A stretch of DNA of 64,000 bases, taken from the NCBI RefSeq assembly GCF_000242595.2, contig NC_017098.1, forward strand, positions 682,001-746,000, given 5' to 3'. The notes under the pieces were generated by a model. That model did not search any database. It was not told where the DNA came from and saw only the letters and a list, made by a program, of their open reading frames with translations. A program made the position numbers and the translations under genes. Origin of the DNA: Spirochaeta africana DSM 8902 (GTDB lineage: Bacteria > Spirochaetota > Spirochaetia > DSM-27196 > DSM-8902). Below are positions 49,494 to 64,000 of the stretch, piece after piece; the stretch's first letter is position 1; every line of letters starts with the position of its first letter.

Positions 49494-50282
49494 TTACGAG
49501 AACGCCCCCGACAGGTATTCCTCGGTTTTTTCTTCCTTCGGACTGTCAAACAGCTGCCGGGTGGGGGCAAACTCCACGACCTCGCCAACAAAGAAGAAGG
49601 CGGTATAGTCGGCAACCCGCTGCGCCTGCTGCATGTTGTGGGTTACAATCACGATGCTGACCTGCTCCTTGAGCGACTGGATCAGCTCCTCGATGCGCAG
49701 GGTGCTGGCCGGATCCAGCGAGCTGGTCGGCTCGTCCATCAGGATAACCTCGGGGTTAACCGCCAGTGCACGGGCGATCGAGAGGCGCTGTTGCTGTCCC
49801 CCCGACAGACTGCCGCCGGGGCTTTTCAGGCGGTCCTTTACCTCGTCCCACAGGGCAGCACCGCGCAGCGACTGCTCGACAATCCCGTCCAGCTCGGCGT
49901 TGCGGCGCATCCCGACCAGGGTCAGACCGGCGGCGACATTGTCATAGATGGATTTTGTCGGGAAGGGGGTGGGTTTCTGAAACACCATCCCGATCTTGCG
50001 GCGCACCACCACCGGATCGACATTCGGGGCATAGATGTCGTCGCCGTCCAGAAAGGCATGACCCAGCACCTCTGCCTCCGGGGAGAGGTCGTGCATCCGG
50101 TTAAGGGCGCGCAGGTAGGTAGTCTTGCCGCAGCCGGAGGGCCCGATCAGTGCGGTTACCTGGTTGGTATACACCGGCATCGAGACCTCCCGAACGCCGT
50201 AGGTGGTTTTGTTGTACACAACCGACAGCTTGTCGGTTTCCATGCGAATCTGCGGTTCTGCAGTTGTTTTACTGGTTGCCAT
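49494..50282 (-). CDS. pstB: phosphate ABC transporter ATPase
   Basis: 262 residues. Full catalytic set: Walker [13 protein letters not shown]-loop [11 protein letters not shown], signature [15 protein letters not shown], Walker [14 protein letters not shown] and H-loop [13 protein letters not shown]. This is the normal PstB of high-affinity phosphate uptake. It is the last of pstS-pstC-pstA-pstB on the minus strand, 10 nt after pstA. It provides the reference against which the second PstB (56738) looks altered. Confidence 0.97.
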
Positions 50283-50292
50283 TTTTCTCTCC

Positions 50293-51168
50293 TCAGGATT
50301 GCGGGGTGTTGTAGCGGTTCATGCGGTCTTCCATCCGCATAACCACAACCCGGCCGATTACGAAGGTGGTGATTACAAACACCATCAGGATGATTGCGGC
50401 ACCCCAGCCCATGGTGTGCCATTGTCGGTAGGGGCTGATCGCCAGGCTGTACAGGCGCTGCGGCAGGGTGTCCATCGGACGGGTCACGTCCAGGGTAAAG
50501 TAGTTGTTGCCGAATGATGTCAGCATCAGCGGTGCTGCCTCGCCGGCGGCGCGGGCAAAGGCGATCAGCACCCCGGTTACGATGCCGGGCCTCGCGGCCG
50601 GCAGTACCAGCGACATGATTACCTTCCAGCGCGGCAGGCCCAGGCTCAGACCGACCTCGCGCAGGCTCCAGGGGGTGATGCGCAGGACGCTCTCGGTAGA
50701 GCGGGCAATAATCGGGATCATCACAAAGGCCAGGGCGGCGGAGCCGGCCAGAGCCGAGAATCCGCCGGTGTTTTTTACCACCAGGGCAAAGGCCAGCAGC
50801 CCCATCAGTACCGCCGGCATCCCGTTCAGGGTGCTGGTCATCAGCCGGGTAATCGGAGACAGGGGGTGTTCAGGATATTCCGACATCATGATCCCGGTGG
50901 CAATGCCAAAGGGTATCGCCATGGCCAGGGCGATCAGGTCGATAACAATAGTACCGACTATCGAGTGGGCCAGGCCGGTGGGGCGTCCCTGCATAGCCCG
51001 GCTGGGGCTGCCCAGTTCCTGGGTGAAAAAGTTCCAGTCCAGGGCGGTAATCCCGTTTACCACTACGTATACGATAATGATAAACAGCGGCACGATTACC
51101 AGCAGGGTCAGGAAAATGATCAGTCCTTCGACTGCGCGGTCGCGCAGATAGCGTGTTTGCAGGGTCAC
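50293..51168 (-). CDS. pstA: phosphate ABC transporter permease PstA
   Basis: 291 residues with six membrane helices. The first is [20 protein letters not shown], and the EAA-type coupling loop [15 protein letters not shown] matches Pst[22 protein letters not shown] segment after the first helix is typical. Start overlaps the pstC stop by 4 nt (ATGA). Phosphate passes through the PstA/PstC pore. Confidence 0.96.
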
Positions 51169-52118
51169 ATGGCCCTCCTTTCTGTGGTCAGCTTGCGCTG
51201 AATCAGCGAAGCCGCCAGGTTTATTGCAATGGTAAGCAGAAAGAGATAGAACCCGACTGCCATAATGCTGGTGTAGTGCAGGGTTTCTACCGCTTCACGG
51301 AACTCGTTGATTATCAGTGACGGCATGGTGGCCGCCGGTCCGAACAGGGTAAATGGAACCCGGTTCGAGTTGCCGATCAGCATGGCGACAGCCATGGTTT
51401 CGCCAAGGCCGCGCGCCAGCGAGAGCAGCACCCCGGCAATGATCCCCGAGCGGGCGTAGGGCAGTACCGACATGCGGATTACCTCCCAGCGGGTTGCGCC
51501 CAGGGCATAGGCGGCCTCGCGCTGATCGCGCGGCACCAGTTTGATGGCATCCCGCGACAGGGCGACCGTGTAGGGAATGATCATCAGGGCGAGGATAATA
51601 CTCGCGGTGATCAGATTGTAGTTGGACGGGGCTCCCAGATAGGGCAGCATCCATTCGGCGTTCTCGGCAGCCCACATATAGATCGGCAGGTAGAAGGTAT
51701 CCCGCATAAACGGGGCGAAATTGAAGATCGCCCATAGCCCGATTACTACACTGGGGATTGCCGCCAGCAGGTCAACCAGGGCATTGATGATCCGTGACAG
51801 CCATTTTGGTGCGTACTCGGCACTGAAGATCGCCACCCCCAGTGCCGGCAGCAGCGAAAGTGCAAGTGCGGCAAAGCTGGTGATCAAGGTGCCAAGGATA
51901 AACGGCAGGGCACCGTGAACACGCGCGACCGGATCCCAGGTGGTTTCGGTCAGGAAACTCAGGTAGCCGAACTCACGGAAACTGGGTGCTGCCTCCAGCC
52001 AGAGGGTTATCGCCATACCGGCAGCCAGGAGGATGATCCCTGAGCTCAGGGTAACGATAATTGCTTTAAAGACACGGTCACCGGGTTGCCGGTACCGGGC
52101 CGGGGTAATATCTGCCAT
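51165..52118 (-). CDS. pstC: phosphate ABC transporter permease PstC
   Basis: 317 residues with six membrane helices. Hallmarks are the region LLAAIPSVVIGLWAIFNFAP and the coupling loop RGLGETMAVAMLIGNSNRVP. AAGGAG precedes the ATG. The gene has its own promoter region: three 11-bp repeats of a CTAACC half-site lie 52-79 nt upstream, and a pstS terminator lies just beyond. So pstCAB can be transcribed apart from pstS. Confidence 0.96.
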   Translation of the reverse strand: MADITPARYRQPGDRVFKAIIVTLSSGIILLAAGMAITLWLEAAPSFREFGYLSFLTETTWDPVARVHGALPFILGTLITSFAALALSLLPALGVAIFSAEYAPKWLSRIINALVDLLAAIPSVVIGLWAIFNFAPFMRDTFYLPIYMWAAENAEWMLPYLGAPSNYNLITASIILALMIIPYTVALSRDAIKLVPRDQREAAYALGATRWEVIRMSVLPYARSGIIAGVLLSLARGLGETMAVAMLIGNSNRVPFTLFGPAATMPSLIINEFREAVETLHYTSIMAVGFYLFLLTIAINLAASLIQRKLTTERRAM

Positions 52119-52169
52119 ACAAAACTCCTTGTGCGGCGGAAGAATCTAAGCGCGAAGGTAGGGGTGTCC

Positions 52170-52197
52170 GGTTAGGAAACGGTTAGGAAATGGTTAG
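52170..52197 (-). promoter_or_regulatory. candidate Pho box upstream of pstC
   Basis: In the direction of pstC, CTAACC begins at 52197, 52186 and 52175, exactly 11 bp apart. The last two units read TTTCCTAACCG. A TAGATT -10-like box follows at about 52148. An 11-bp direct repeat overlapping the -35 region is the standard layout for PhoB/PhoP binding. Confidence 0.7.
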
Positions 52198-52221
52198 ATT
52201 CATGATAGAGCCGCGTTGCAT

Positions 52222-52258
52222 AAAAAAAAGGAGGACCTGTGCACCGCACAGGCCCCCC
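52222..52258 (-). terminator. terminator between pstS and pstC
   Basis: Minus strand: a 13-bp stem (GGGGGGCCTGTGC / GCACAGGTCCTCC, two G-U pairs) with a GGT loop, then eight T. It lies 32 nt after the pstS stop and should make PstS more abundant than the membrane subunits. Confidence 0.93.
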
Positions 52259-52289
52259 ACCTTTCTGGAGGAAAGGGTACGAAGAGAGA

Positions 52290-53417
52290 TTAGAAGCCGT
52301 TGGCCTGAACCTGGTCGATAACCTGCTGGCCGACCGGTTCGCCGTTGTACTTCAGGGTGCTGATCATCTGCACTGCCAGTGCCTGGGCATCGTCCGGGAG
52401 GCGGGCAAAGCTCAGGCCTTCGTTCAGGTCCTGCCCGTCGGTTACAGTCCAGTACAGGAACTTGGCTACCTGCTCGGCCTCGGCGCGAGAGGTGATGGCT
52501 GCATTCTGATCCAGGTTTTCGTAGACCAGGGCCCAGGCAAAACCGGCAATCGGGTAACCCTGGGGTGCCGGGGTGTCGGTCAGCGACACGCGGCCGTCTG
52601 CCGGCAGCTCTACAGCTGCGGCCAGGCTGGTAGCTTCCAGCGAGGGCTCGATGATGTTGCCCGACTTATTAACGATGTAGGCATAGTCGATGTCGTTCAG
52701 GACTGCGTATACCAGGCTGTTGTAACCCAGGGCACCGGGAGTGCTCTGTACGATTCCGGCAACACCCTCGTTACCGTTCCCGCCGCTGCCGGTGGGCCAG
52801 TTAACCGAGCTGCCGAAGCCGACCCGGTCGGCCCAGGTGCTGTTGGTCTTGGTCAGGTAGTCGGTAAAGATCGCGGTAGATCCCGATCCGTCCGAGCGGT
52901 GGGCGATCTGGATCGGCAGATTTGGCAGGTCAACATCGGGGTTGAGTGCGGCAATCTTTGAGTCATTCCAGCGGGTGATCTCACCCAGGAAAGCGCCGGC
53001 AATAACATCGGCATCCATTACCAGACCCTTGTCCACGCCGGGTACGTTGTAGGTCAGAACGATGTCCCCCAGGGTGATCGGCATGTTGTAGGCCACCCCG
53101 CCGGTCAGACGCAGGGCATCATCCATCTGCTCATCGGTCAGGCTGCGCTCGGATGCCCCGAACATGATGTTCTGCTCGATGAACTGGCGGATGCCGCCAC
53201 CCGAGCCGATCGACTGGTAGTTCACGGTTACCTGGCCGTTGGTCACATCCCGGTACTCATCGGCCCAGGCGGTGATCAGGGGAGCCGGAAAGGACGCCCC
53301 GGCACCCAGCAGCTCGTGACGAGCCTCGCGAGCGCCTTCCTGTTGTCCGGCAGCGAATGCCGGCATGGTCAGCGCCAGTGCCAGCAATGCAATGGTCAAT
53401 ACACGAATGGTTTTCAT
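52290..53417 (-). CDS. pstS: phosphate-binding protein PstS
   Basis: 375 residues with a signal peptide (MKTIRVLTIALLALALTMPA). Phosphate-binding blocks are GAGASFPAPLITAWADEY, YQSIGSGGGIRQFIEQN, FGASERSLTDEQM and HRSDGSGSTAIFTDYL, the classical PstS set. Periplasmic; no lipobox cysteine is present. GGAG precedes the ATG. Upstream are 11-bp repeats of the CTAACC type. It has its own terminator before pstC. Confidence 0.97.
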   Translation of the reverse strand: MKTIRVLTIALLALALTMPAFAAGQQEGAREARHELLGAGASFPAPLITAWADEYRDVTNGQVTVNYQSIGSGGGIRQFIEQNIMFGASERSLTDEQMDDALRLTGGVAYNMPITLGDIVLTYNVPGVDKGLVMDADVIAGAFLGEITRWNDSKIAALNPDVDLPNLPIQIAHRSDGSGSTAIFTDYLTKTNSTWADRVGFGSSVNWPTGSGGNGNEGVAGIVQSTPGALGYNSLVYAVLNDIDYAYIVNKSGNIIEPSLEATSLAAAVELPADGRVSLTDTPAPQGYPIAGFAWALVYENLDQNAAITSRAEAEQVAKFLYWTVTDGQDLNEGLSFARLPDDAQALAVQMISTLKYNGEPVGQQVIDQVQANGF

Positions 53418-53462
53418 GTTTTTCTCCTTTGAAAAAGTGTTACCCGCAAGGTCTGCCTGCTG

Positions 53463-53490
53463 TGTTAGTGGTTTGATTGGTTTCGGTTAG
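53463..53490 (-). promoter_or_regulatory. candidate Pho box upstream of pstS
   Basis: In the direction of pstS: CTAACC at 53490-53485, CAATCA at 53479-53474 and CTAACA at 53468-53463, each 11 bp apart. Spacing and half-site match the pstC and pstS2 upstream regions. Confidence 0.65.
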
Positions 53491-53572
53491 ATTTTGATGA
53501 GAAGTAGAGGGCGATGGGCACATCAGTTTTTAACAATGTACTGGCGGAATAATGTCTCAATGTATAAACCGC

Positions 53573-53583
53573 GGGGGGGGGGG
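53573..53583 (+). repeat. poly-G tract (11 G) at the gtrA ribosome-binding site
   Basis: Eleven consecutive G end 5 nt before the gtrA ATG, so they act as the Shine-Dalgarno. A TATAAA box lies about 6 nt upstream of the tract. Such tracts change length by slippage. Confidence 0.85.
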
Positions 53584-53588
53584 AAGCG

Positions 53589-54074
53589 ATGTATACACAG
53601 CGAACAAAGCCTCACTTGCTGAACCGCATACTGGTACGGCGCAGTCAGCATACCGGTGTGCAGCTGCTGCGATCGGTAATTGCCAGCGCAGCAGCCTCGC
53701 TGGCCGATTATGCGGTCCTGGTGCTGCTGGTACGCCGTGCCGGTTTGCCTGAGACCCTGGCCGGGACCCTGAGTATGGGGGCCGGTTTGCTGGTAGTGTA
53801 TGTACTCGGACGATGCTGGGTTTTTCCCCGCATACCCAAGGGCTATCGCCGCATCGAGTTCAGTATGTTCACGGTGATCGCCGGGCTCGGGGCGTTGCTG
53901 CATGTGGGGCTCCTTTCGACCATGATTCGCCTTGCTGGTATGCATTACCTGGCTGCCAAGGCGGTTGCAATGGCGGCAACCTTTACCTGGAACTTCTGTT
54001 TGCGTCGCGGCGTTGCCCAGCTGATTCTGCGCCGCTTTTCCTGTCGGCAGGTTTTGTCGTCGGGGCGTTGCTAA
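53589..54074 (+). CDS. GtrA-family membrane protein
   Basis: 161 residues with four membrane helices. The start QLLRSVIASAAASLADYAVL, the middle LGRCWVFPRIPKGYRRIEFS and the last helix AVAMAATFTWNFCLRRGV are the GtrA pattern (flippase-like proteins that move polyprenyl-phosphate-linked sugars; also found with teichoic acid and glycolipid genes). It is divergent from pstS and just upstream of the second pst operon. Phosphate limitation often changes envelope glycolipids, so the placement may be meaningful. A poly-G tract forms its ribosome site. Confidence 0.85.
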   Translation: MYTQRTKPHLLNRILVRRSQHTGVQLLRSVIASAAASLADYAVLVLLVRRAGLPETLAGTLSMGAGLLVVYVLGRCWVFPRIPKGYRRIEFSMFTVIAGLGALLHVGLLSTMIRLAGMHYLAAKAVAMAATFTWNFCLRRGVAQLILRRFSCRQVLSSGRC

Positions 54075-54087
54075 TCATTTCCTAACA
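54071..54087 (+). promoter_or_regulatory. candidate Pho box upstream of the second pst operon
   Basis: CTAATC at 54071-54076 and CTAACA at 54082-54087, 11 bp apart, 32 nt before the pstS2 ATG. The first half-site overlaps the gtrA stop codon. Confidence 0.6.
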
Positions 54088-54118
54088 AAAGATGCCTACC
54101 CTGTAGAGCGGAGCGTAT

Positions 54119-55009
54119 ATGAGAACTGTTGTGCTGCCGTTAATCCTGGGCCTCGTATGTGTACTGCTGTGGCTGGCAGTGCTGGTGCGGGCGAATTCTG
54201 CCGCCCCGGGCAGCGGCGTCGGGGTTGTGGAGATCGCCGGATCCAGTTCGGCCGCGCCATTGCTGGAAGAGCTGGCACAGCGGTACATGCGGCGTGAGGG
54301 TTCGGCATCAATCCGCGTGAATGGTACCGGGTCTACCGACGGTATCCGCGCGGCGGCAGCCGGAACGGTGGATTTCGGCATGAGCAGCCGAACCTTGCGG
54401 GAAGATGAACAACAGGGATTGTCCGTCGTTCAGCTGGCGATTGATCCGGTCACGGTGATTGTGCATCCGGATAATCCGGTGCGCAGTCTGAGTCTTGCCG
54501 AGATACGGGCCGTCTATCGGGGAGAGATTGATACGTGGTCGCAGCTGACCGTTTCTGCTGGCGCAGCCGCTCCGGTCGCCGCCCCCGGGGGGACGCCGTC
54601 GAACAGGACACCACAGCGATCCCGTATTGTGGTGGTATCGCGCGAACCGGGATCCGGCACCCGCGGCGCATTCGAGACCGCGCTGGATTTTCGCGATCAG
54701 CTCGGGCTCGGGGCGATCGAGCTGGACGGGAGTGCGGCGGTACGGGCTGCGGTGGCTCGCAACCCTGCGGCAATCGGCTATATTTCATCCGGGTTCCTGC
54801 GACCGGAGGTAGCTGCTCTGGAAGGTGCAGCGTTTGATGGTGCGGCCTTGAGCCAGAGAGATGTCTCCCCGCTCGCACGACCACTGTTGCTGATATACCG
54901 TGAAGGGTCGCTTTCCCCAGCTGCCCGGAGATTTCTGGCATGGCTTGAATCACCCGAGGGTCAGCTCGAGATTGCCGATATCATGCATGGCGGGAGGACG
55001 AATGACTGA
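54119..55009 (+). CDS. PstS-like phosphate-binding protein (paralogue 2)
   Basis: 296 residues. An uncleaved or cleaved N-terminal hydrophobic segment (VLPLILGLVCVLLWLAVLV) precedes the domain. Ligand-site blocks are intact: IAGSSSAAPLLEELAQRYM, VNGTGSTDGIRAAAAGTVDF, GMSSRTLREDE and SREPGSGTRGAFETAL. It has no lipobox. First gene of an operon of seven; its stop overlaps pstC2 by 8 nt. It is shorter than the canonical PstS (375) and may bind phosphate or a related oxyanion. Confidence 0.9.
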   Translation: MRTVVLPLILGLVCVLLWLAVLVRANSAAPGSGVGVVEIAGSSSAAPLLEELAQRYMRREGSASIRVNGTGSTDGIRAAAAGTVDFGMSSRTLREDEQQGLSVVQLAIDPVTVIVHPDNPVRSLSLAEIRAVYRGEIDTWSQLTVSAGAAAPVAAPGGTPSNRTPQRSRIVVVSREPGSGTRGAFETALDFRDQLGLGAIELDGSAAVRAAVARNPAAIGYISSGFLRPEVAALEGAAFDGAALSQRDVSPLARPLLLIYREGSLSPAARRFLAWLESPEGQLEIADIMHGGRTND

Positions 55010-55886
55010 TGCTGCACGACTGACTGCCGAGGCAGTACTGCGACGGGGCTTTCGTCTGGCTGCGCTGGCAGCCCTGCTGGCCTCGGCTGCGCTGCTGGGG
55101 GTGGTGGTTTTTCAGGGATTGCGTCCGCTGCTTGGAAGCGTGGCACCGGCCGATTTTCTGTTTGGACAGGAGTGGCGGCCAGAGTATCGTGAGCTGTTCG
55201 GGATAGTACCCTTGCTGGCAACAACCCTGATTACCGCGGTCGCCGCCGCGGTACCGGCGGCGATAATCGCGGTGCCGGCGGCACTGTATGTGGTTGAGTA
55301 TCTGCCGCGGCGGTGGAGTCGGCGCCTGCTGGGCATGGCCGAGCTCGCTGCCGGTCTGCCCGGGGTGGTATATGGATTTTTCGGGGTAATGGTGGTGATC
55401 CCCTGGCTGGAGCAGTACGCCGGGCTGCCGGAGGGGCGTTCACTGGCCGCTGCAGTCCTGGTGCTGGGGATGATGACGATACCGACAGTGCTGATGCACA
55501 GCATGGTGGCGATCCGGGCGGTGCCTGCCGGCTATCGCCGGGCAGCCGTCGCACTGGGTGCCGACCCGGTACAGACTGCCTGGCTGGTGGTGCTGCCAGC
55601 AGCAGCACGAAGCGTTCTGGCCGGGGTGCTGGCCGCAGCGATTCGTGCCGCCGGAGAGGCGGCTGCCGTGGCCATGGTGGCCGGCAACTCTCCGCAGCTG
55701 CCGCGAGCGCTGGGGGACAGCGTGCGCACCCTGACTGCGACATTGCTGCTGGAGATGGGATCGGCTCAGGGGCTGCACAGCCGCGTGCTGTTCAGCATCG
55801 GGCTGGTGCTGTTCCTGCTGGTTCTGCTGGGGCAGTGGGGCGCAACACGGCTGGTTAACCGGAAACAGGGATTCTCGTATGTATAG
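55002..55886 (+). CDS. PstC-like permease (paralogue 2)
   Basis: 294 residues from ATG 55002, inside the end of pstS2 (GGGAGG upstream). Six membrane helices. LAAGLPGVVYGFFGVMVVIP and the coupling loop RAAGEAAAVAMVAGNSPQLP match PstC, with Glu kept in the loop. Overlaps pstA2 by 8 nt. Part of the second pst operon. Confidence 0.93.
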   Translation: MTDAARLTAEAVLRRGFRLAALAALLASAALLGVVVFQGLRPLLGSVAPADFLFGQEWRPEYRELFGIVPLLATTLITAVAAAVPAAIIAVPAALYVVEYLPRRWSRRLLGMAELAAGLPGVVYGFFGVMVVIPWLEQYAGLPEGRSLAAAVLVLGMMTIPTVLMHSMVAIRAVPAGYRRAAVALGADPVQTAWLVVLPAAARSVLAGVLAAAIRAAGEAAAVAMVAGNSPQLPRALGDSVRTLTATLLLEMGSAQGLHSRVLFSIGLVLFLLVLLGQWGATRLVNRKQGFSYV

Positions 55887-56748
55887 CCCGACCGATTTTC
55901 GCCCGGACCTGCGTCGCCGCCCGGTGACCCTTATCGCCTGTATCGGCATGGGTGCTGCAGCGGTGTTCGCCTTTGGCCTGCCGCTGGTGCTGGCCGGCTA
56001 TGTAGCCCTCGGCGTACTGCGAACCGAGCTGCCGCCAGGCATGTTTACTGCCGGTGCGGAACACTCGCTGCTGCCGATGATAGCGACCAGCGTCCTGCTG
56101 GTCGGGCTGACCTTGCTGCTGGCGGTACCGGTCGGGATCGCCGCCGCGGTGTATCTGTCGGCGTACAGCAGGCGCGGTCGCCTGCACCGTATGGTGCAGC
56201 TGACGGTCGATACCCTGGCCGGTATACCGCCAATCCTGTATGGGCTGTACGGATTGTTCGTCTTCAGTCGCGCGCTGGGGATGCGTCAGTCGATTCTGGC
56301 GGGAGCCTGTACCCTGGCGGTGATGATCCTGCCGGTCATTATCCGATCGGTCGAAGCAGCGCTGGCAGCGGTTCCGGACGGATTACGCCATGGCGGGCGC
56401 GCTTTGGGCGCCTCAGGCTGGCAGGTGCTGTTCAGGCTGCTGCTGCCGCATGCTGCCCCCGGGATACTGGCTGCGGTGCTGCGCTCAATCGCCAGAATAA
56501 TCGGCGAGGCAGCACCGGTGCTGCTAACGGTAGGCGTAGCGCGCAATCTGCCGCAGGGTTTGCTGCACTCCGGACGCACCCTGAGTGTGCATCTCTACTT
56601 CACTGCACAGGAGGCCGTGCAGCCGCAGGAGCATGGGGTGGTGTTTGTTACCGCGGCCTCGCTGCTGCTGGTGACGGCAGCTGTCCACGGCGCTGCCAGA
56701 CTGCTCCGGAATCGAATGAACACGCGAAGGGGGAACGATGAAGCCTAA
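55879..56748 (+). CDS. PstA-like permease (paralogue 2)
   Basis: 289 residues. Six membrane helices; LTVDTLAGIPPILYGLYGLF and coupling loop RIIGEAAPVLLTVG match PstA. It starts inside the end of pstC2 and ends inside the start of pstB2 (11-nt overlap), so the set is tightly coupled. Together with PstC2 it should form a membrane pore like the canonical one. Confidence 0.93.
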   Translation: MYSPTDFRPDLRRRPVTLIACIGMGAAAVFAFGLPLVLAGYVALGVLRTELPPGMFTAGAEHSLLPMIATSVLLVGLTLLLAVPVGIAAAVYLSAYSRRGRLHRMVQLTVDTLAGIPPILYGLYGLFVFSRALGMRQSILAGACTLAVMILPVIIRSVEAALAAVPDGLRHGGRALGASGWQVLFRLLLPHAAPGILAAVLRSIARIIGEAAPVLLTVGVARNLPQGLLHSGRTLSVHLYFTAQEAVQPQEHGVVFVTAASLLLVTAAVHGAARLLRNRMNTRRGNDEA

Positions 56749-57487
56749 ACTCGGTATCGCCGGGCTCGAACTGCTGTATGGTGATCTGCATGCCTTGCGC
56801 GGCATTACCATGCAGATAGCACCGGCCGAGATAGTCGCCCTGATCGGTCCTTCCGGCTGTGGAAAATCTGCCTTGCTCGGGGTGCTCAACCGCATGACCG
56901 GCCCGGATGCCCATCTGGCTGGATCAGTGGAGCTGGATGGGCAGGATATCTACCGTGACCTGAACGAGTACGAGCTGCGGCGACGGGTGGGAATGATCTT
57001 TGCACGTCCCAATGTCTTCCCGATGAGCATCTACGACAATATCGCCTTCGGTCCACGGGTGAACGGCGAGAGGCGGCGGCCGGTGCTGGATGAAATGGTG
57101 GAGACTGCCCTGACAGAGGCCGAGCTGTGGGATGAGGTCAAGGATCGTTTGCGCTCACCGGCGCTGCGACTTTCCGAGGGGCAGCAGCAGCGGCTGTGCA
57201 TCGCGCGTGCCCTGGCCCTGCAGCCCGAGGTGCTCCTGCTGGACGAGCCGACCAGTTCTCTGGATCCGATCGCGACCGGGCGAATCGAGCAGCTGCTGGA
57301 ACGACTGTCGCAGCGGATGGCTATCCTGCTGGTTACCCATGCGGTGCAGCAGGCATCGCGGATCAGTGATCGCACCGCGTTCTTCCTGCATGGCGAACTG
57401 GTAGAGTGCGGGCGTACCGAGGAAATGTTTGTACAGCCCCGGCAGCAAAGCACGGCTGACTACATCAGCGGAAGGTTTCAGCGATGA
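56738..57487 (+). CDS. PstB-like ATPase with altered Q-loop and signature (paralogue 2)
   Basis: 249 residues. Walker A GPSGCGKSALL (37-47), Walker [13 protein letters not shown] (166-177) and H-loop H201 are kept. But the Q-loop, canonical GMVFQKPNPFP, reads GMIFARPNVFP, so the Gln that binds Mg and couples to the permease is Ala (A89). The signature LSGGQ reads LSEGQ (E147). The first PstB in this locus (49494) has both canonical motifs. Slow or regulatory ATP turnover is therefore possible, though this is inference. Start overlaps pstA2; stop overlaps the Fic-like gene by 4 nt. Confidence 0.93.
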   Translation: MKPKLGIAGLELLYGDLHALRGITMQIAPAEIVALIGPSGCGKSALLGVLNRMTGPDAHLAGSVELDGQDIYRDLNEYELRRRVGMIFARPNVFPMSIYDNIAFGPRVNGERRRPVLDEMVETALTEAELWDEVKDRLRSPALRLSEGQQQRLCIARALALQPEVLLLDEPTSSLDPIATGRIEQLLERLSQRMAILLVTHAVQQASRISDRTAFFLHGELVECGRTEEMFVQPRQQSTADYISGRFQR

Positions 57488-58140
57488 GCAGACTTTTTGA
57501 TATCGACACGATCGAGACCGACCTCCGGGGATTCCAGCGTGATTTTGCCGAGATCAACGATCAGCTGGCGATGCGTCGCGAGGACATCACCGATACCATG
57601 GTGGCGCAGATAGTAGATGCCTACCGATTTCTGAATGAACTGCTGGAGAAGGGGATGGATCTGTTTACCCCGGCCGGGCTGCATGCCCTGCTGGAGATGA
57701 ATCACATCGTGTTGTGCGGACTCGACAGTACCACCCGCAGTCAGTACTATCATCACCTGAATGAAACCCGCAAAAGCTTTCTGCAGCGAATCAAGCCGAT
57801 CAAGGAGTGGGTGCTGAAAAAGCGTGACAACGGCAATCCGTACAAGCTGGCCGCCGGTTTCTACTCCCGCATGCTCAGCCAGCCCCAGCTGTTTCTGGAG
57901 GGGAATCATCGTACCGGCAACATCCTCCTGAATTATCTGCTGGTCAGCAAGGATGCCGATCCATTCGTAATCTCGCCGGCCACGGCTCTTCCGTATCTCG
58001 ATCTCTCGGGGGATATCAAGTTCTCCAACAAGGACAACTCGCTGGACGCCAATGTAAAGCTGCCGGGGCACCGCAAGCGCTTCCGTGTGTTCCTGGAGCA
58101 GCATAGCAATCCGCGCTATCTGTGCGAGGGAGGGAGCTGA
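57484..58140 (+). CDS. Fic-like protein with Gln in place of the catalytic His
   Basis: 218 residues, soluble and helical. Residues 135-146 read QLFLEGNHRTGN, aligning to the Fic core HPFxEGNGRTxR. F137, E139, G140, N141 and R143 are kept, while the catalytic His is Q135, the second Gly is H142 and the last Arg is N146. Fic enzymes add AMP or other phosphate-containing groups to proteins; without the His this one probably does not do so in the usual way. It is coupled by 4 nt to pstB2 and by 1 nt to the transporter gene downstream, so it belongs to this operon. It may be a phosphate or nucleotide-sensing adaptor. No toxin-antitoxin partner is seen. Confidence 0.7.
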   Translation: MSRLFDIDTIETDLRGFQRDFAEINDQLAMRREDITDTMVAQIVDAYRFLNELLEKGMDLFTPAGLHALLEMNHIVLCGLDSTTRSQYYHHLNETRKSFLQRIKPIKEWVLKKRDNGNPYKLAAGFYSRMLSQPQLFLEGNHRTGNILLNYLLVSKDADPFVISPATALPYLDLSGDIKFSNKDNSLDANVKLPGHRKRFRVFLEQHSNPRYLCEGGS

Positions 58141-59969
58141 TGGGTGTGTCCGGACTGCTGGCTGTGCCGGCGGTATTCGGTGGACTGGCGGTGTTCCTGC
58201 TGGGTGCCGGCAGATTCAGTGACTCCCTGCTCAGACGCCAGCGCCGCCGCTTTGTCCGGCTGTTGTCCGGCGGCGGTGAATCACGGGCCGGCCGAGCTGG
58301 TGCGGCATCTGCAGTGTCCCGGCGGTCGGCGCAGCAGAACCGGCGCCGTCACCATGCCTTTGCGGGTGAATGGCATGACAACTGGAACGGGTTCTGGCGC
58401 GGTACGGCGGCCGGTGCACTGTCCGGGGTACCCTCCGCCGGGGTGGTGTTACTGGTATCTCTGGTGGATTCCGGCCAGGTGCGTCTGCGCCAGGCAGCAG
58501 CCATCCTCCTGGGGATCAATCTCGGGGCGACGGTGTTTGCATGGTATCTGGCGGTGTTCGGATATCAGGCCGTTTTTGCCGGTTCCGGCCTGATCCTGCT
58601 GGCGCTGGCGTTGCCCTATGTCGTCGGTTCTGGTGGTGAGTTCAGTGGTGCTGCCGAGCTCTTGTTGGGAATTGGTCTGACCCTGTTGGGTACCCACCTG
58701 CTGGGCTGGTATCTGCCGGCGGCGGCAGACTGGCTGGGGCGAGATGCAGACTGGCAGCTGTCGGTACACTCCTACCTGATGCGCGGGATGTCTGCCCTGC
58801 CGGCTGCTGCCGGGATGCTGCTGGGGGCAGCGGCAGTCGGCGCCGTTACTGCAGCCCTGCTGCGCTCCTTTCCCGGTGCGGTAGTGCTGGCGATGTCACT
58901 GTCGGCCACCGGGCTCACCGACATCTGGATCGCGGTGGGGATTACCACCGGGGCTGGTATCGGTATGAGTCTGACCGGCTTTCTGGCTGCCCGCCGATTG
59001 GGGGCGGCAGCGCGCAGTACCGCACGGCTTAATTTACTGCTGAACTGCGGCGCGGCGCTCTGGATGTTTCTGCTGCTGTTCTGGCTGGTTCCTGCTGCGG
59101 CTAGCCTGGTACCGGGGGTAAGCAACGGCGCTGCGGCACTGCAGCTGGCACTGCTGCTGAGCATCCAGCACAGTCTGAATGCGGTGCTGCTGCTGCCGGC
59201 GGCGCATCGGCTGGGTCGGCGGTTCCGCGATGCGGAACCGCCGGGGGCGCTGGTGTCGGTTGGTGCAGCCGGCGATGCTGCCCCGGCCGGCCTGCGTCTG
59301 GTTCCTTCCGGGCTGCCGGAAGCGCTGGAGTCCAATCTGCTGCACACACAGCGCGCGCTGGCGGAGATGGCCGATGCCGCCCGGGCCATGCTGATGACCG
59401 TTATGAACGTCTCCCAGCTGTCCGACAGTTTCGAGGATCAGCTGGATCAGATCCAGACCGGCAAAATGCAGCTGACCACCCTGCGTAACATGGTGTCCCA
59501 GGCCCTTACCCGGGCGGTGCAGTCGCTGTGCAGTCCCGAACAGGCCGAAACCATCCAGCAGCAGCAGCGAATCGCCCATGAATTGAAAGGGGTAGGCGAT
59601 GACTGTTACCGGATTATGCTGGTGTTCAGTCGGAGCTACCGGAAAAAATACCGCTTTCATGACGAGAGCGATGATGAGCTGTTCGGCTTTTCTGCCCAGG
59701 TACTGGACTTTCTGCAGTACAACAGCGATTATTTGCAGGGACGCCTGCTGGAGCTTGATCCGGACGTGGCGGAACAGATGGAGGCTGGCATTAATGCTGC
59801 CCGGGACGTCCTGAAAAAGCGGTCCCGTCGGGTGATAGAGCAGCAGCAGGACGCCCATGTAAAGGGTGAGTTGGCATTCATCGAAATTGTGGGACATCTG
59901 GAGCATATCGGTGACTGTTGTCTGCATATCTCCCGAACGGTCCGACGACTGCAGAAGGTACGGCTATGA
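58140..59969 (+). CDS. Na/Pi-cotransporter-like membrane protein with PhoU domain, lacking QSSS motifs
   Basis: 609 residues from ATG 58140 (GGGAGGGAG upstream; 1-nt overlap with the Fic-like gene). Residues 1-380 have about nine membrane helices in the NptA/PNaS duplicated layout (AAAILLGINLGATVFAWYLA in repeat 1; AVGITTGAGIGMSLTGFLAA in repeat 2). The two diagnostic QSSSAT turns are replaced: GVPSAG at 96-101 and RSFPGA at 242-247. The C-terminal 220 residues are helical and PhoU-like (RALAEMADAARAMLMTVMN, HLEHIGDCCLHISRTVRRL). It may act as a sensor or a scaffold and not as a symporter. Confidence 0.83.
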   Translation: MGVSGLLAVPAVFGGLAVFLLGAGRFSDSLLRRQRRRFVRLLSGGGESRAGRAGAASAVSRRSAQQNRRRHHAFAGEWHDNWNGFWRGTAAGALSGVPSAGVVLLVSLVDSGQVRLRQAAAILLGINLGATVFAWYLAVFGYQAVFAGSGLILLALALPYVVGSGGEFSGAAELLLGIGLTLLGTHLLGWYLPAAADWLGRDADWQLSVHSYLMRGMSALPAAAGMLLGAAAVGAVTAALLRSFPGAVVLAMSLSATGLTDIWIAVGITTGAGIGMSLTGFLAARRLGAAARSTARLNLLLNCGAALWMFLLLFWLVPAAASLVPGVSNGAAALQLALLLSIQHSLNAVLLLPAAHRLGRRFRDAEPPGALVSVGAAGDAAPAGLRLVPSGLPEALESNLLHTQRALAEMADAARAMLMTVMNVSQLSDSFEDQLDQIQTGKMQLTTLRNMVSQALTRAVQSLCSPEQAETIQQQQRIAHELKGVGDDCYRIMLVFSRSYRKKYRFHDESDDELFGFSAQVLDFLQYNSDYLQGRLLELDPDVAEQMEAGINAARDVLKKRSRRVIEQQQDAHVKGELAFIEIVGHLEHIGDCCLHISRTVRRLQKVRL

Positions 59970-60982
59970 TACGACTCCGCACAACCCGAGGAATACTCAT
60001 GCTGGGAGGGCTTGCTGCTGCACTGCTGATGGGCAGCTGTCGTGCAGAAAATGGTGATACGTCATCCTCCCTGGCACAGCTGCCGGCGTATGTGCCGGCA
60101 GAGCGGCATGCCGGTACCATCCAGGTTGTCGGCTCGGATACCCTGCGCACTGCCTTGCTGCTGCTGACCGACGCCTATCATGTGCAGCAGCCGGCTGTTG
60201 AGTTCGAGCTGCACTTTCCCGGCTCGGATTTTGGGGCCCAGGCACTTGCAGATGGGCAGGCACAGCTGGCGCCGATGAGTCGGGCGCTTGCCGGGCATGA
60301 ATACGATGAGGTGGCGCGCCGAACTGGCCAGTCACCGCTACAGGTGCCGGTGGCTATCGATGCTGTCGCGGTGTATGTGCATCGTGAGAATCCGGTTGAA
60401 TCTGCTGATCTGCAGCAGCTTGCACAGGTGTTTGGGGACGTGGCGACCGAAGGGGATGCGGTGACCTGGTCCATGCTGGGCGGCAGCGGCGACTGGGCGG
60501 CCAGATCCCTGCAGCCGGTCGGCAGGGCCCCTGGTTCCGGCACCTATGAACTGTTTCGTACCCGGGTGCTGCAGGGAGCCGGGTTTGCACCGGCATATCG
60601 TGCGTATCCCGGTTCCTCATCGACCGTGCGGGCGGTGGCGGCCGATGCCGGCCTGATCGGGTATTCCGGCATCGGTTACAACTATGCCGGGGTCCGACCG
60701 CTGGCGCTGTCCGAGGATGGCGGGGCGGCCTATCAGCCGCTGCCGGAGCATATCCTCAGCGGCAGGTATCCGCTGGTCCGCCCGCTGTACATCTATGCAA
60801 GTCTTGAACAGGGACTCCCCGAGGAGACTGCCGCTGCAATGCTGGATTTCCTGCTGTTTGTGGTGTCACGGCAAGGTCAGCAGCTGCTGGCGCGGGACGG
60901 GTTCATCCTGCTCGATCAGGAGGACCTGGCGTCTGTCCGGACCCGGCTGGAGACTGCTGCGGCAGCACTATCCGGAAGGTAG
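59966..60982 (+). CDS. PstS-like lipoprotein (paralogue 3)
   Basis: 338 residues from ATG 59966, overlapping the transporter stop by 4 nt. The lipobox LLMGSC gives a lipidated mature start at C25. PstS-like blocks are VVGSDTLRTALLLLTDAY, PMSRALAGHEYDE and GRAPGSGTYELFRTRVL, with GSSSTVRAVAADAGLIGYSG. The binding site looks related to PstS but is more diverged than PstS2, and may bind another phospho-ligand. Last gene of the operon. Its final 80 nt overlap the end of the convergent phoR gene. Confidence 0.88.
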   Translation: MIRLRTTRGILMLGGLAAALLMGSCRAENGDTSSSLAQLPAYVPAERHAGTIQVVGSDTLRTALLLLTDAYHVQQPAVEFELHFPGSDFGAQALADGQAQLAPMSRALAGHEYDEVARRTGQSPLQVPVAIDAVAVYVHRENPVESADLQQLAQVFGDVATEGDAVTWSMLGGSGDWAARSLQPVGRAPGSGTYELFRTRVLQGAGFAPAYRAYPGSSSTVRAVAADAGLIGYSGIGYNYAGVRPLALSEDGGAAYQPLPEHILSGRYPLVRPLYIYASLEQGLPEETAAAMLDFLLFVVSRQGQQLLARDGFILLDQEDLASVRTRLETAAAALSGR

Positions 60983-62663
60983 AGCCGCGACCCAGCGTGC
61001 TGTCTACCGCGACCGATCCCCCGTGTACCAGTGCAATGTGCTTCACGATTGCCAGGCCCAGCCCGGTCCCGCCTTGCTGACGGCTGCGGGCGCGATCTAC
61101 CCGATAGAAGCGCTCAAACAGTCGAGGGAGATCCTGCTGGGGAATCCCGGTACCGCTGTCCTGCACCTCCAGGATGGCGTCGCTGTCCTGCCACCGGCTG
61201 CGGAGCACAACCTCTGCCCCGGCGGGGCTGTACTTGATGGCATTCTGCACCAGGTTTAGCAGAGCCTGCTCCAGCAGGTTGGCATTGGCGGTAAGTCCTG
61301 CCGGCCCCTGATTATCAACCCGAACCCGGATGCCGCGCTCGCTGCTGAGGTGGCTGGTCAGATCAACCACCCCCTGCAGCAGTGGAGCCAGCGAGACCTC
61401 GCTGCGGGGCAGCTCCCGGCCGTGTTCCTCGATGCGCGACAGGCTGAGGAGGTCTTCGATAATTGCCTGCAGTCGCTGAGACTGGGTGTGAACGATCCCC
61501 AGAAAGCGCTGAAGGTCTGACCGCGGCATCTCGATATCTTCAAGAATTGTCTCGACAAACCCGCCGATACTGGTGATCGGGGTTTTGAGCTCGTGCGAGA
61601 CGTTGGCAACGAAATCGCGGCGCACCGTTTCCAGCCGCCTGATTGCCGTTATGTCATGCAGCACCAGCAGGGTGCGCTGCTTGTGGTTGCTCTGGTATAC
61701 CGCGGCCTGCACCTGGATAATCCGTGGTTCGTTACCAAAAAGCTCGATTTCATGCTGCTGCGGCTGCGGCTGCAGCTGACCCGGAGACTCGGGTGATGAG
61801 TGATGGTCCGGCTGCAGCTGTTCGTGCAGCGTGCGTACCAGTTCCTCCAGGCGCGAACTGCGTACAACCTGCAGCAGGGGTTTGCCCTCAACTGCATCGG
61901 GGTCTGCATCAAACAACATTGCTGCAACCCGGTTCATCCGCACCACGCGACTGGTGCGGTCTAGTACGATGATCCCCTCGGCCAGGCTGCCAAGCAGCGC
62001 CTCCAGTTCCTGTTGTTGCGCCAGAATGGTGGCAATCCGCGACTGCAGCTGTGCCGCCATCTGATTCATGGTGGCTGCTACCTCGCCCACAATGGGGTGC
62101 TCATCCGGCGAGGTCCGGTGAGCCAGATTACCGCCAGCATACTCATTGGCAGCAGCAGCCAGGGTGTGCAGCGGCTGCTGCAGGGTGCGTCCGGCCAGCT
62201 GCATCCCTAGCCAGATGACCAGCAACAGCAGCAGCCCCAGTCCACCCAGCACATACAGCTGGGAGGGATAGTAGGGCACCGGTTCGGTGGTGTACAGGGT
62301 GACCAGCCCGCTGCGATACGGGGACTCGGCGGCATGAGCCAGTACCCCGATATTGTACGGAAAAACCAGGATATCCTCGCCCCGGGTGTTCTCGACCACA
62401 ATCCGGTGGCGGTGGCTGCCGCGGGCATCCCAGGTATCGATCATATCGCGAATGGTCAGAAAGGCTAACCGCTCATTGGGTTCGGCAAACCGCTCCAGGA
62501 CAGATGCGGCCAGGTCGGCGTTTCGCTGCAGTTCACGACGGTGATCGCTCTGGTACTGGCGTTCATAGACCAGATTGGACCAGAATCCGGCCGCAATCAC
62601 CATAATCATGGTTACGGCACCAACGATGAGAAATGTACTGCGAATCGGATCTCTGGAACTCAC
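60903..62663 (-). CDS. phoR: PhoR-type sensor histidine kinase
   Basis: 586 residues. Two membrane segments (TFLIVGAVTMIMVIAAGFWS; VLGGLGLLLLLVIWLGMQLA) flank a periplasmic loop of about 100 residues. Then come HAMP, PAS (LEALLGSLAEGIIVLDRTSR), HisKA with phospho-acceptor in NVSHELKTPITSIGGF (about residue 355) and HATPase (N-box LLNLVQNAIKYSPAGAEV; G1 VQDSGTGIP; G2 GGTGLGLAIVKHI). The large periplasmic loop is bigger than in E. coli PhoR. Encoded 11 nt after phoB. Its last ~26 codons overlap pstS3 on the other strand. Confidence 0.93.
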   Translation of the reverse strand: MSSRDPIRSTFLIVGAVTMIMVIAAGFWSNLVYERQYQSDHRRELQRNADLAASVLERFAEPNERLAFLTIRDMIDTWDARGSHRHRIVVENTRGEDILVFPYNIGVLAHAAESPYRSGLVTLYTTEPVPYYPSQLYVLGGLGLLLLLVIWLGMQLAGRTLQQPLHTLAAAANEYAGGNLAHRTSPDEHPIVGEVAATMNQMAAQLQSRIATILAQQQELEALLGSLAEGIIVLDRTSRVVRMNRVAAMLFDADPDAVEGKPLLQVVRSSRLEELVRTLHEQLQPDHHSSPESPGQLQPQPQQHEIELFGNEPRIIQVQAAVYQSNHKQRTLLVLHDITAIRRLETVRRDFVANVSHELKTPITSIGGFVETILEDIEMPRSDLQRFLGIVHTQSQRLQAIIEDLLSLSRIEEHGRELPRSEVSLAPLLQGVVDLTSHLSSERGIRVRVDNQGPAGLTANANLLEQALLNLVQNAIKYSPAGAEVVLRSRWQDSDAILEVQDSGTGIPQQDLPRLFERFYRVDRARSRQQGGTGLGLAIVKHIALVHGGSVAVDSTLGRGSTFRIVLPQQSPAGSGQTPGPPDRAG

Positions 62664-62674
62664 CGCGCCGCTGC

Positions 62675-63361
62675 CTACTTTATGTCCTGCAGCCGGTAGC
62701 CAACCCCGCGGACGGTCTGGATTGCCTCGCCGCGCTGTCCCAGTTTGCGCCGCAGCCCTAGAATCTGCACATCGACGCTGCGTTCGGTTACCGGATAATT
62801 GTCGCCCTTGACGGCATCAATAATCTTTGCCCGGCTGAAAACCCAGCCGGGGTTCTTGATAAGTACCTCCAGGATGCCGAACTCGGTTGCACTCAACTCT
62901 ACCGGTGAGCCATCAACCATCACCTCGTAACGGGCGCTGTCCAGCTGAATCCCGTGAGCGGTGTAGAGCTTGGCTGGCGGCTGATGCTCGCCAAGGGTGC
63001 GACGCAACAGTGCCTTGATACGTGCGGTAAGCACCTTCGGGCTGAAGGGTTTGGTAACATAATCATCGGCGCCGACATTCAGCCCGGTAACGATGTCCGG
63101 ATCCTCGGTACGGGCGGTCAGCATCAGCACCGCCGGGCCGATATCCCCGGCCTTTATTCGTGCGCACACCTCCAGACCATCGATGCCCGGCAGCATCAGG
63201 TCCAGAACCACCAGATCGAACGGGCGGGAGCGAACCATTCGCAGGGCATCTTCGCCGGTCTCTGCCGACTCCACTAGCCAGCCCTCGCGTTCCAGATTGT
63301 AGCGCAACAGCTCCAGGATATCGGGTTCATCATCTACAATCAGAATCCGTGCTGTTTCCAT
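62675..63361 (-). CDS. phoB: PhoB-type response regulator
   Basis: 228 residues, OmpR/PhoB family. Receiver with ILIVDDEPDILELLRYNLER, phospho-acceptor in VVLDLMLPGIDGLEV (D54 region) and TKPFSP. The C-terminal winged helix has ELSATEFGILEVLIKNPGWV and TERSVDVQILGLRRKLGQRG. It should bind 11-bp repeats; the CTAACC repeats ahead of the pst genes are the obvious targets. Between phoU and phoR on the minus strand; 25 nt separate it from phoU, with an AAGGAG before its ATG. Confidence 0.96.
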   Translation of the reverse strand: METARILIVDDEPDILELLRYNLEREGWLVESAETGEDALRMVRSRPFDLVVLDLMLPGIDGLEVCARIKAGDIGPAVLMLTARTEDPDIVTGLNVGADDYVTKPFSPKVLTARIKALLRRTLGEHQPPAKLYTAHGIQLDSARYEVMVDGSPVELSATEFGILEVLIKNPGWVFSRAKIIDAVKGDNYPVTERSVDVQILGLRRKLGQRGEAIQTVRGVGYRLQDIK

Positions 63362-63386
63362 GGCGTATTCTCCTTGTGTACGTACA

Positions 63387-64000
63387 CTAATCGTTCAGTT
63401 CCGGATGGTGACCGGTGCGGGCATATACCACCCACTCGCACATGTTGGTTACATGATCGCCAAGGCGCTCCAGAAACCGGCAGAGCAGCAGCAGGCGGGT
63501 GCCGTCCTCGATGTGAGCCGGATCCTCCTGCATGTAGGCGATAATCTCCCGATAGGCCGTCCGATGGAGCTCGTCGATCAGATCGTCCCGGGCTGCAATG
63601 GCCTCCGCCATGGCGGTATCCCCATCCATAAAGGCGGTCAGTACATCATGCAGCATCCCGATACCCAGCTCACTCATTCGCAGCAGGCGCGGCAGGGCAA
63701 CCTCTATCCCGTGCCGGGAAACCCTGTCGACTGCTTTCGCGATATGGCGTGCGTGGTCGCCGATTCGCTCAATGTCTGCTGCAAGTTTGATACAGGTAAT
63801 CAGAATTCGCAAATCCTCGGCAACCGGCTGTTCGATAGCAATAACACGGGTCACCAGATCCTCGATCTCGGCCTGCGCCGTATCGATCACGCTGTCTTCA
63901 TCGATAACCAGCTGTGCTGCGGTGGTGTCCTTCTCGGCCAGAGCGGCCATAGCCTTGTGCAGGGCCTCCTCGGCCAGGGTTCCCATGTGCAGGATCCCGG
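63387..64000 (-). CDS. phoU: PhoU, phosphate signalling regulator (5' partial)
   Basis: About 204 residues are visible and the frame is open to the right edge; the usual N-terminal 15-20 residues are missing, so the gene is cut by the window. PhoU signatures are intact: EEALHKAMAALAEKDTTAAQ, VIAIEQPVAEDLRILITCIK and the metal motif ERIGDHARHIAKAVD, repeated later as ERLGDHVTNMCEWVVY. PhoU links the Pst transporter to PhoR to keep the Pho regulon off when phosphate is plentiful. Heads the phoU-phoB-phoR set; its promoter is outside. Confidence 0.95.
   Translation of the reverse strand, partial: GILHMGTLAEEALHKAMAALAEKDTTAAQLVIDEDSVIDTAQAEIEDLVTRVIAIEQPVAEDLRILITCIKLAADIERIGDHARHIAKAVDRVSRHGIEVALPRLLRMSELGIGMLHDVLTAFMDGDTAMAEAIAARDDLIDELHRTAYREIIAYMQEDPAHIEDGTRLLLLCRFLERLGDHVTNMCEWVVYARTGHHPELND

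Follow-up and report, generated by a model that had tools for sequence, protein, structure and literature searches.

An 11-G tract at the probable Shine-Dalgarno site of gtrA in Spirochaeta africana

In Spirochaeta africana DSM 8902, the gene gtrA is preceded by a homopolymeric tract of exactly 11 G, which is likely, according to duplex calculations, to be the Shine-Dalgarno (SD) site of the gene. The tract lies in a 64-kb stretch of DNA (the window), bases 682001-746000 of a closed, single-contig genome of 3,285,855 bp. The explanation which we favour, with some confidence, is that it is an SD which has been lengthened by slippage and is mostly buffered against changes in its length. The SD would have started G-rich and replication slippage would have extended it to 11 G; the long tract would be tolerated, since about five or more G give ribosome pairing at one fixed distance from the ATG. 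Between cells, tract length probably drifts by one or two G, which would change GtrA little. The SD role comes from calculation, slippage from analogy with a relative, and buffering from the duplex energies. Phase variation by a change of spacing, as proposed in the original prediction, finds no support; other routes to phase variation keep an appreciable probability, well short of even. The tract is a minor curiosity and no established phase-variation locus.

Rarity of the tract and its pairing with the ribosome

The tract occupies positions 53573-53583 on the + strand. It is preceded by TGTATAAACCGC and followed by the spacer AAGCG (53584-53588), which is unchanged at any tract length, and then by the ATG at 53589. 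Direct reading thus confirms its place 5 nt from the start codon. Among homopolymers of all four bases it is also the longest in the window, as had been claimed; the runners-up are two A9 runs, then A8 and T8, and all other G runs in the window are 7 nt or shorter. Runs of G or C of at least 8 nt are found throughout the genome (22 of 8 nt, two of 9, two of 10 and one of 11). The sole 11-nt run is the gtrA tract, which is the longest G/C run of the whole genome.

G runs of at least 11 nt are expected 0.002-0.1 times in the window, varying with model order. For the genome, both strands' runs (G and C) of this length are expected 0.1-0.5 times under composition models of orders 4-5 and 1-7 times under orders 1-3; extrapolating the upper end of the run counts observed in the genome yields 0.17-0.4. 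Run counts compared with the composition models revealed no genome-wide excess of long G/C runs, and many relatives equal or exceed this genome's number of G9 runs. One G11 per genome is unremarkable, though it is rare within a 64-kb window. As the run-length statistics fit chance, no selection is needed to explain the tract. A genome-wide family of poly-G contingency loci was also considered and rejected, because long runs are not in excess and 8-G runs are nearly all intragenic.

The downstream gene (53589-54074, + strand, ATG start) encodes a 161-aa protein of the GtrA/DPMS transmembrane family. The original identification as gtrA holds: the product matches Pfam PF04138 over residues 30-140 with 62.9 bits (cut-off 26.1) and aligns with about 20 spirochaete homologues. 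It is the only GtrA-family gene in the genome. GtcA and its kin in this family are thought to flip lipid-linked sugars (PMC7389260). Several spirochaete homologues begin about 8 residues later, where the aligned codon in S. africana is a TTG (53616) lacking an SD; other homologues have equally long N-termini. For these two reasons the ATG at 53589, with its poly-G SD, is the likely start, as judged from sequence. Could the tract instead be coding DNA of gtrA, read from an in-frame start upstream? At 11 G, the TAA inside the hexamer TATAAA closes that frame, so the tract is noncoding for gtrA at this length.

Pairing with the ribosome was computed for tracts of 3-16 G against a generic bacterial CCUCC 16S tail; the AAGGAG-type SDs of neighbouring genes imply a tail of this type. 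The tract spans -16 to -6 relative to the ATG, which is the position of a ribosome binding site (RBS). At 11 G the predicted duplex has an energy of -14.8 kcal/mol and ends 3 nt before the ATG, in agreement with the earlier placing of the tract at the SD position. The duplex end stays 3-4 nt before the ATG at all lengths computed. Energy (in kcal/mol) is about -8.6 for a tract of 5 G, reaches -13.2 at 9 G and levels off at -14.3 to -14.9 for 10-16 G, with -14.8 to -14.9 from 11 G upwards. For the SDs of nine genes nearby the values run from -5.3 to -16.8, so that a tract of 5 G is already within their range; among the neighbours, pstB2 has GAAGGGGGAACG followed by its ATG.

The original prediction held that changes in length would alter promoter or ribosome spacing. 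Neither spacing varies. Whatever its length, the tract has its 3' end 5 nt from the ATG, so gain or loss of G leaves the distance from SD to ATG unchanged; the TATAAA lies upstream of the tract, so any -35/-10 spacing is unaffected as well. This geometry, with the duplex energies at 3-16 G, rules out a change of spacing as the switch.

G-run SDs are an occasional form in this genome. A run of at least 5 G at -16 to -4 precedes 4 of the 53 genes in the window, against 19 of 658 interior pseudo-starts scored in the same way (Fisher p = 0.08). Over the genome as a whole there are 423 matches to GGGGG at SD distance from an ATG; the control counts are 368 with the motif placed at 24-28 nt and 354 with the pattern reversed. 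In relatives, G9 runs are found 3-6 nt before the ATG of livF-like (L080), fliE-like (L078) and solute-binding-like (L079) open reading frames (ORFs), named by reading their translations; across the order, matches to G9 followed by ATG 3-9 nt later exceed those of the reversed control by a modest margin only. The occurrence of G-run SDs elsewhere, including before genes which are not surface genes, favours an ordinary origin of the gtrA tract as a G-rich SD that slipped longer.

Other routes from tract length to expression

Tract length could also act through the mRNA leader. The tract would then be a contingency repeat whose G count sets the expression of gtrA, and perhaps of the pst genes that follow, by one of three means: binding of a small RNA that has a C/U-rich loop, a quadruplex formed by the RNA over the SD, or in-frame reading from upstream start codons. 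This is a possible but distinctly less probable reading. The longest G tract of the genome does lie on a ribosome site. When quadruplexes are allowed, a two-tier quadruplex appears in ViennaRNA folds of 11 G or more and in none of 10 G or fewer, so that the observed tract has the shortest length predicted to form one; however, the program's energies for two-tier quadruplexes are generous and probably too favourable. Two ATGs lie upstream: one at 53552-53554 (+ strand), which frame computation places in frame with gtrA only at 7, 10, 13 or 16 G, and one at 53560-53562 (+ strand), in frame only at 6, 9, 12 or 15 G. Reading from these could thus enter gtrA at 9, 10, 12 or 13 G but not at 11, at which length the frame of the ATG at 53560 is out of register and stops after 20 codons. 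Neither ATG has a clear SD, whereas the gtrA ATG has its own, usable in every frame. GtrA homologues lacking such a tract also speak against leader control.

A stricter version makes the SD a length-gated switch. It would be open at 10 G or fewer and masked at 11 G or more by the two-tier quadruplex, for which 2+1+2+1+2+1+2 = 11 nt are needed; slippage by a single G would then toggle GtrA, and perhaps the second phosphate-uptake operon, between cells. We regard this as very improbable, the least probable of the readings considered.

The hexamer TATAAA at 53563-53568 (+ strand) resembles a -10 element, and the original prediction had described it as a box just upstream of the tract. The hexamer is present; a consensus scan found no -35-like partner and no sigma-70 promoter match, and use of the site as a promoter is conjectural. 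It is the only -10-like box and the tract sits 3' of it. If it were used, transcription would start about 7 nt downstream, inside the G tract at its second or third G. Two further alternatives involve the initiation of transcription. One is promoter phase variation as in the tpr genes of Treponema pallidum, with tract length setting promoter activity. In its favour, the organism is a spirochaete and the tract has at least 8 G, with TATAAA close 5' of it; length variation is known for 13 of 17 further G tracts tested in T. pallidum, where some tested tracts start at -7 or -1 from the annotated ATG (PMC7864442). In tprL, however, transcription starts 4 nt downstream of the tract, which is thus inside the promoter (PMC7864442), whereas here the sole -10-like box is upstream of the tract, and a start 4 nt past it would fall almost on the gtrA ATG. 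Given also the missing -35 match, and a switching linked to host immunity that is not obviously relevant to a free-living species, promoter phase variation is improbable.

The other is reiterative initiation. RNA polymerase would start inside the tract and slip, adding a variable number of G to the 5' end and tying expression to the level of GTP or other nucleotides. The TATAAA would put +1 at a suitable place, but the promoter is itself only putative, and this alternative appears somewhat less probable again.

Two smaller patterns surround the tract. An imperfect direct repeat, ATGTATAAACCGCG and ATGTATACACAGCG (12 of 14 positions identical, 29 nt apart, 53560-53602, + strand), lies on either side of it; TGTATAMAC occurs in the window only at these two sites (0.19 expected), though the pattern was picked after the fact. 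A perfect 8-bp palindrome, TGTATACA, at 53590-53597 overlaps the gtrA start codon and has a near-copy just upstream of the tract.

Slippage, relatives and other G tracts

GtrA homologues are found in 33 of 395 Spirochaetia genomes; the relatives compared include no congener or member of the same family. A G/C run of at least 6 nt was found within 150 nt upstream of the homologue's start at none of about 25 loci examined, and one locus has G7 at -169. Conservation of a poly-G tract at gtrA was accordingly rejected. The same loci (about 25) have no pst gene beside the GtrA homologue; PstB matches near homologues are only 28-34% identical, as general ABC ATPases would be. Genome contigs searched for a second strain (with the exact tract flanks and a variable G count) gave no match, and nor did those searched for relatives of the GtrA protein. 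In the nearest closed relative in the search (G001, 3,782,798 bp), which we take to be Salinispira pacifica, GtrA homologues (L013, L040) are inside open frames of more than 500 codons, as is one in G068 (L047); in the long frame of G001, acyltransferase-like sequence follows the GtrA part.

A Salinispira locus (L069, G001:C1:3404778-3406829) bears on the lability of such tracts. It has three repeat copies of GGG...CAGGATG with 11, 10 and 11 G, and two of these copies match exactly over flanks of 438 nt and 50 nt yet differ as G10 and G11, though an assembly error is possible. Because the Salinispira copies differ in this way, the G11 run of gtrA likely slips in length too, by analogy. Error in the S. 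africana sequence itself, with a true consensus length other than 11, is unlikely, if a little more probable than the promoter-based readings. Homopolymers this long are error-prone on most platforms; on the other side, the genome is closed in a single contig. The frame and SD of gtrA are indifferent to the exact G count, so the sequence betrays no error.

Several points weigh against a simple buffered SD. The tract far exceeds the length which an SD needs. Three of the five genomic G runs of at least 9 nt lie 5-110 nt upstream, on the coding strand, of genes for envelope or putatively exported proteins, namely gtrA, a gene whose product has a signal-peptide-like start (L005) and a gene with a TonB plug (L008); such placement is what contingency loci would be expected to show, although nothing can be proved from five cases. 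Searches for the organism's own 16S tail gave no match, perhaps because it is masked, and the duplexes depend on the generic tail. With very stable pairing of the poly-G run, or with a quadruplex, the effect of length could also be less flat than the duplex model has it.

The other long runs are of some interest in themselves. At L008 (~1501-1510; G000:C1:2648735), a G10 run lies between a LysR-type gene and a gene for a TonB-plug receptor, on the receptor's coding strand and roughly 100 nt upstream of it; judged by gene type, this is a better candidate for phase variation than gtrA. At L005 (~1501-1509; G000:C1:1999691), a G9 run with AGGAGG directly behind it stands before the ATG of a gene whose 200-aa product has a signal-peptide-like start and matches no Pfam family. 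At L004 (1501-1509; G000:C1:782005), a G9 run is in frame near the start of a lipoprotein-like gene with a CarboxypepD_reg domain, and slippage there would truncate the product.

The phosphate gene cluster and known systems

The gtrA gene is part of a phosphate cluster at 49494-63986, in which the pho and pst names are given from family matches and context. The cluster is complete: besides two Pst systems it has a Na+/Pi cotransporter, a third binding protein and phoU-phoB-phoR. Upstream, pstS of the first Pst system (52290-53417, - strand) is divergent from gtrA and shares with it a 171-nt intergenic region; pstC, pstA and pstB of that system are also on the - strand. Downstream (54119-58140, + strand) there are a pstS-like gene, pstC, pstA, pstB and a weakly Fic-like gene, with overlapping ends. 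These are followed on the + strand by the Na+/Pi cotransporter and the third binding protein, and then by phoR, phoB and phoU on the - strand. The region 53300-54200 showed no terminator-like site, so gtrA may head one operon with the second set of pst genes.

GtrA-family proteins alter envelope glycolipids in the argument originally made for surface variation. That argument is weak here: the sole GtrA of the genome is inside a Pst/Pho cluster, and no glycosyltransferase, either GtrB-type or acceptor-specific, was found among the neighbouring genes scanned, which extend from the divergent pstS as far as phoU. These neighbours are genes for phosphate uptake and signalling, together with the one weak Fic match. 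The Fic-like gene (57484-58140, 218 aa) overlaps pstB2, has a weak match to PF02661 (E = 0.022) and carries the motif LFLEGNHRTGN.

GGTTAG occurs three times exactly, with 11-nt spacing (the CGGTTAGGAAA repeat), at 52169-52197 upstream of pstC, and another copy is at 53485 (region 53462-53490) in the pstS/gtrA intergenic region. Outside the phosphate cluster, GGTTAG occurs in exact form in a single + strand copy. From their sequence and placing, these repeats are candidate Pho boxes of the - strand pst genes.

If gtrA is indeed controlled by tract length, a homopolymer would here serve as the SD itself, which is rare; the control would possibly be tied to phosphate starvation, and it would occur in a free-living spirochaete which has no host immunity to evade. 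The tract also serves as a warning. Long G runs ahead of a start codon are not necessarily spacing switches, since the distance from SD to ATG is kept when a tract with a fixed 3' edge slips.

Known systems resemble the gtrA tract in part. In T. pallidum and Helicobacter pylori alike, as here, a G run of contingency length is found close to where a gene starts. The tpr genes of T. pallidum, including tprL, and TP0126 share with it a spirochaete host, a tract of at least 8 G immediately 5' of the coding region and likely slippage. Their tracts are in promoters, upstream of the transcription start, whereas that of gtrA is at the probable ribosome site, 3' of the only -10-like box; their products are known or putative outer-membrane proteins (PMC7864442), whereas GtrA is a multi-pass inner-membrane protein. 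In Helicobacter pylori, the small RNA RepG binds a G-repeat in the tlpB leader, relatively far upstream of the RBS (PMC8295292). There too a homopolymeric G tract (about 12 nt) is found in the mRNA leader of an operon with an envelope-sugar gene; in contrast to that repeat, the gtrA tract is the RBS itself. GtrA is like the putative undecaprenyl-phosphate-sugar flippases of the GtrA/GtcA type in being a small multi-pass membrane protein of PF04138. The gtr glycosylation operons have the order gtrA-gtrB-gtrX; in S. africana, by contrast, gtrA lies in a Pst/Pho cluster, and the neighbours scanned include no GtrB-type glycosyltransferase.
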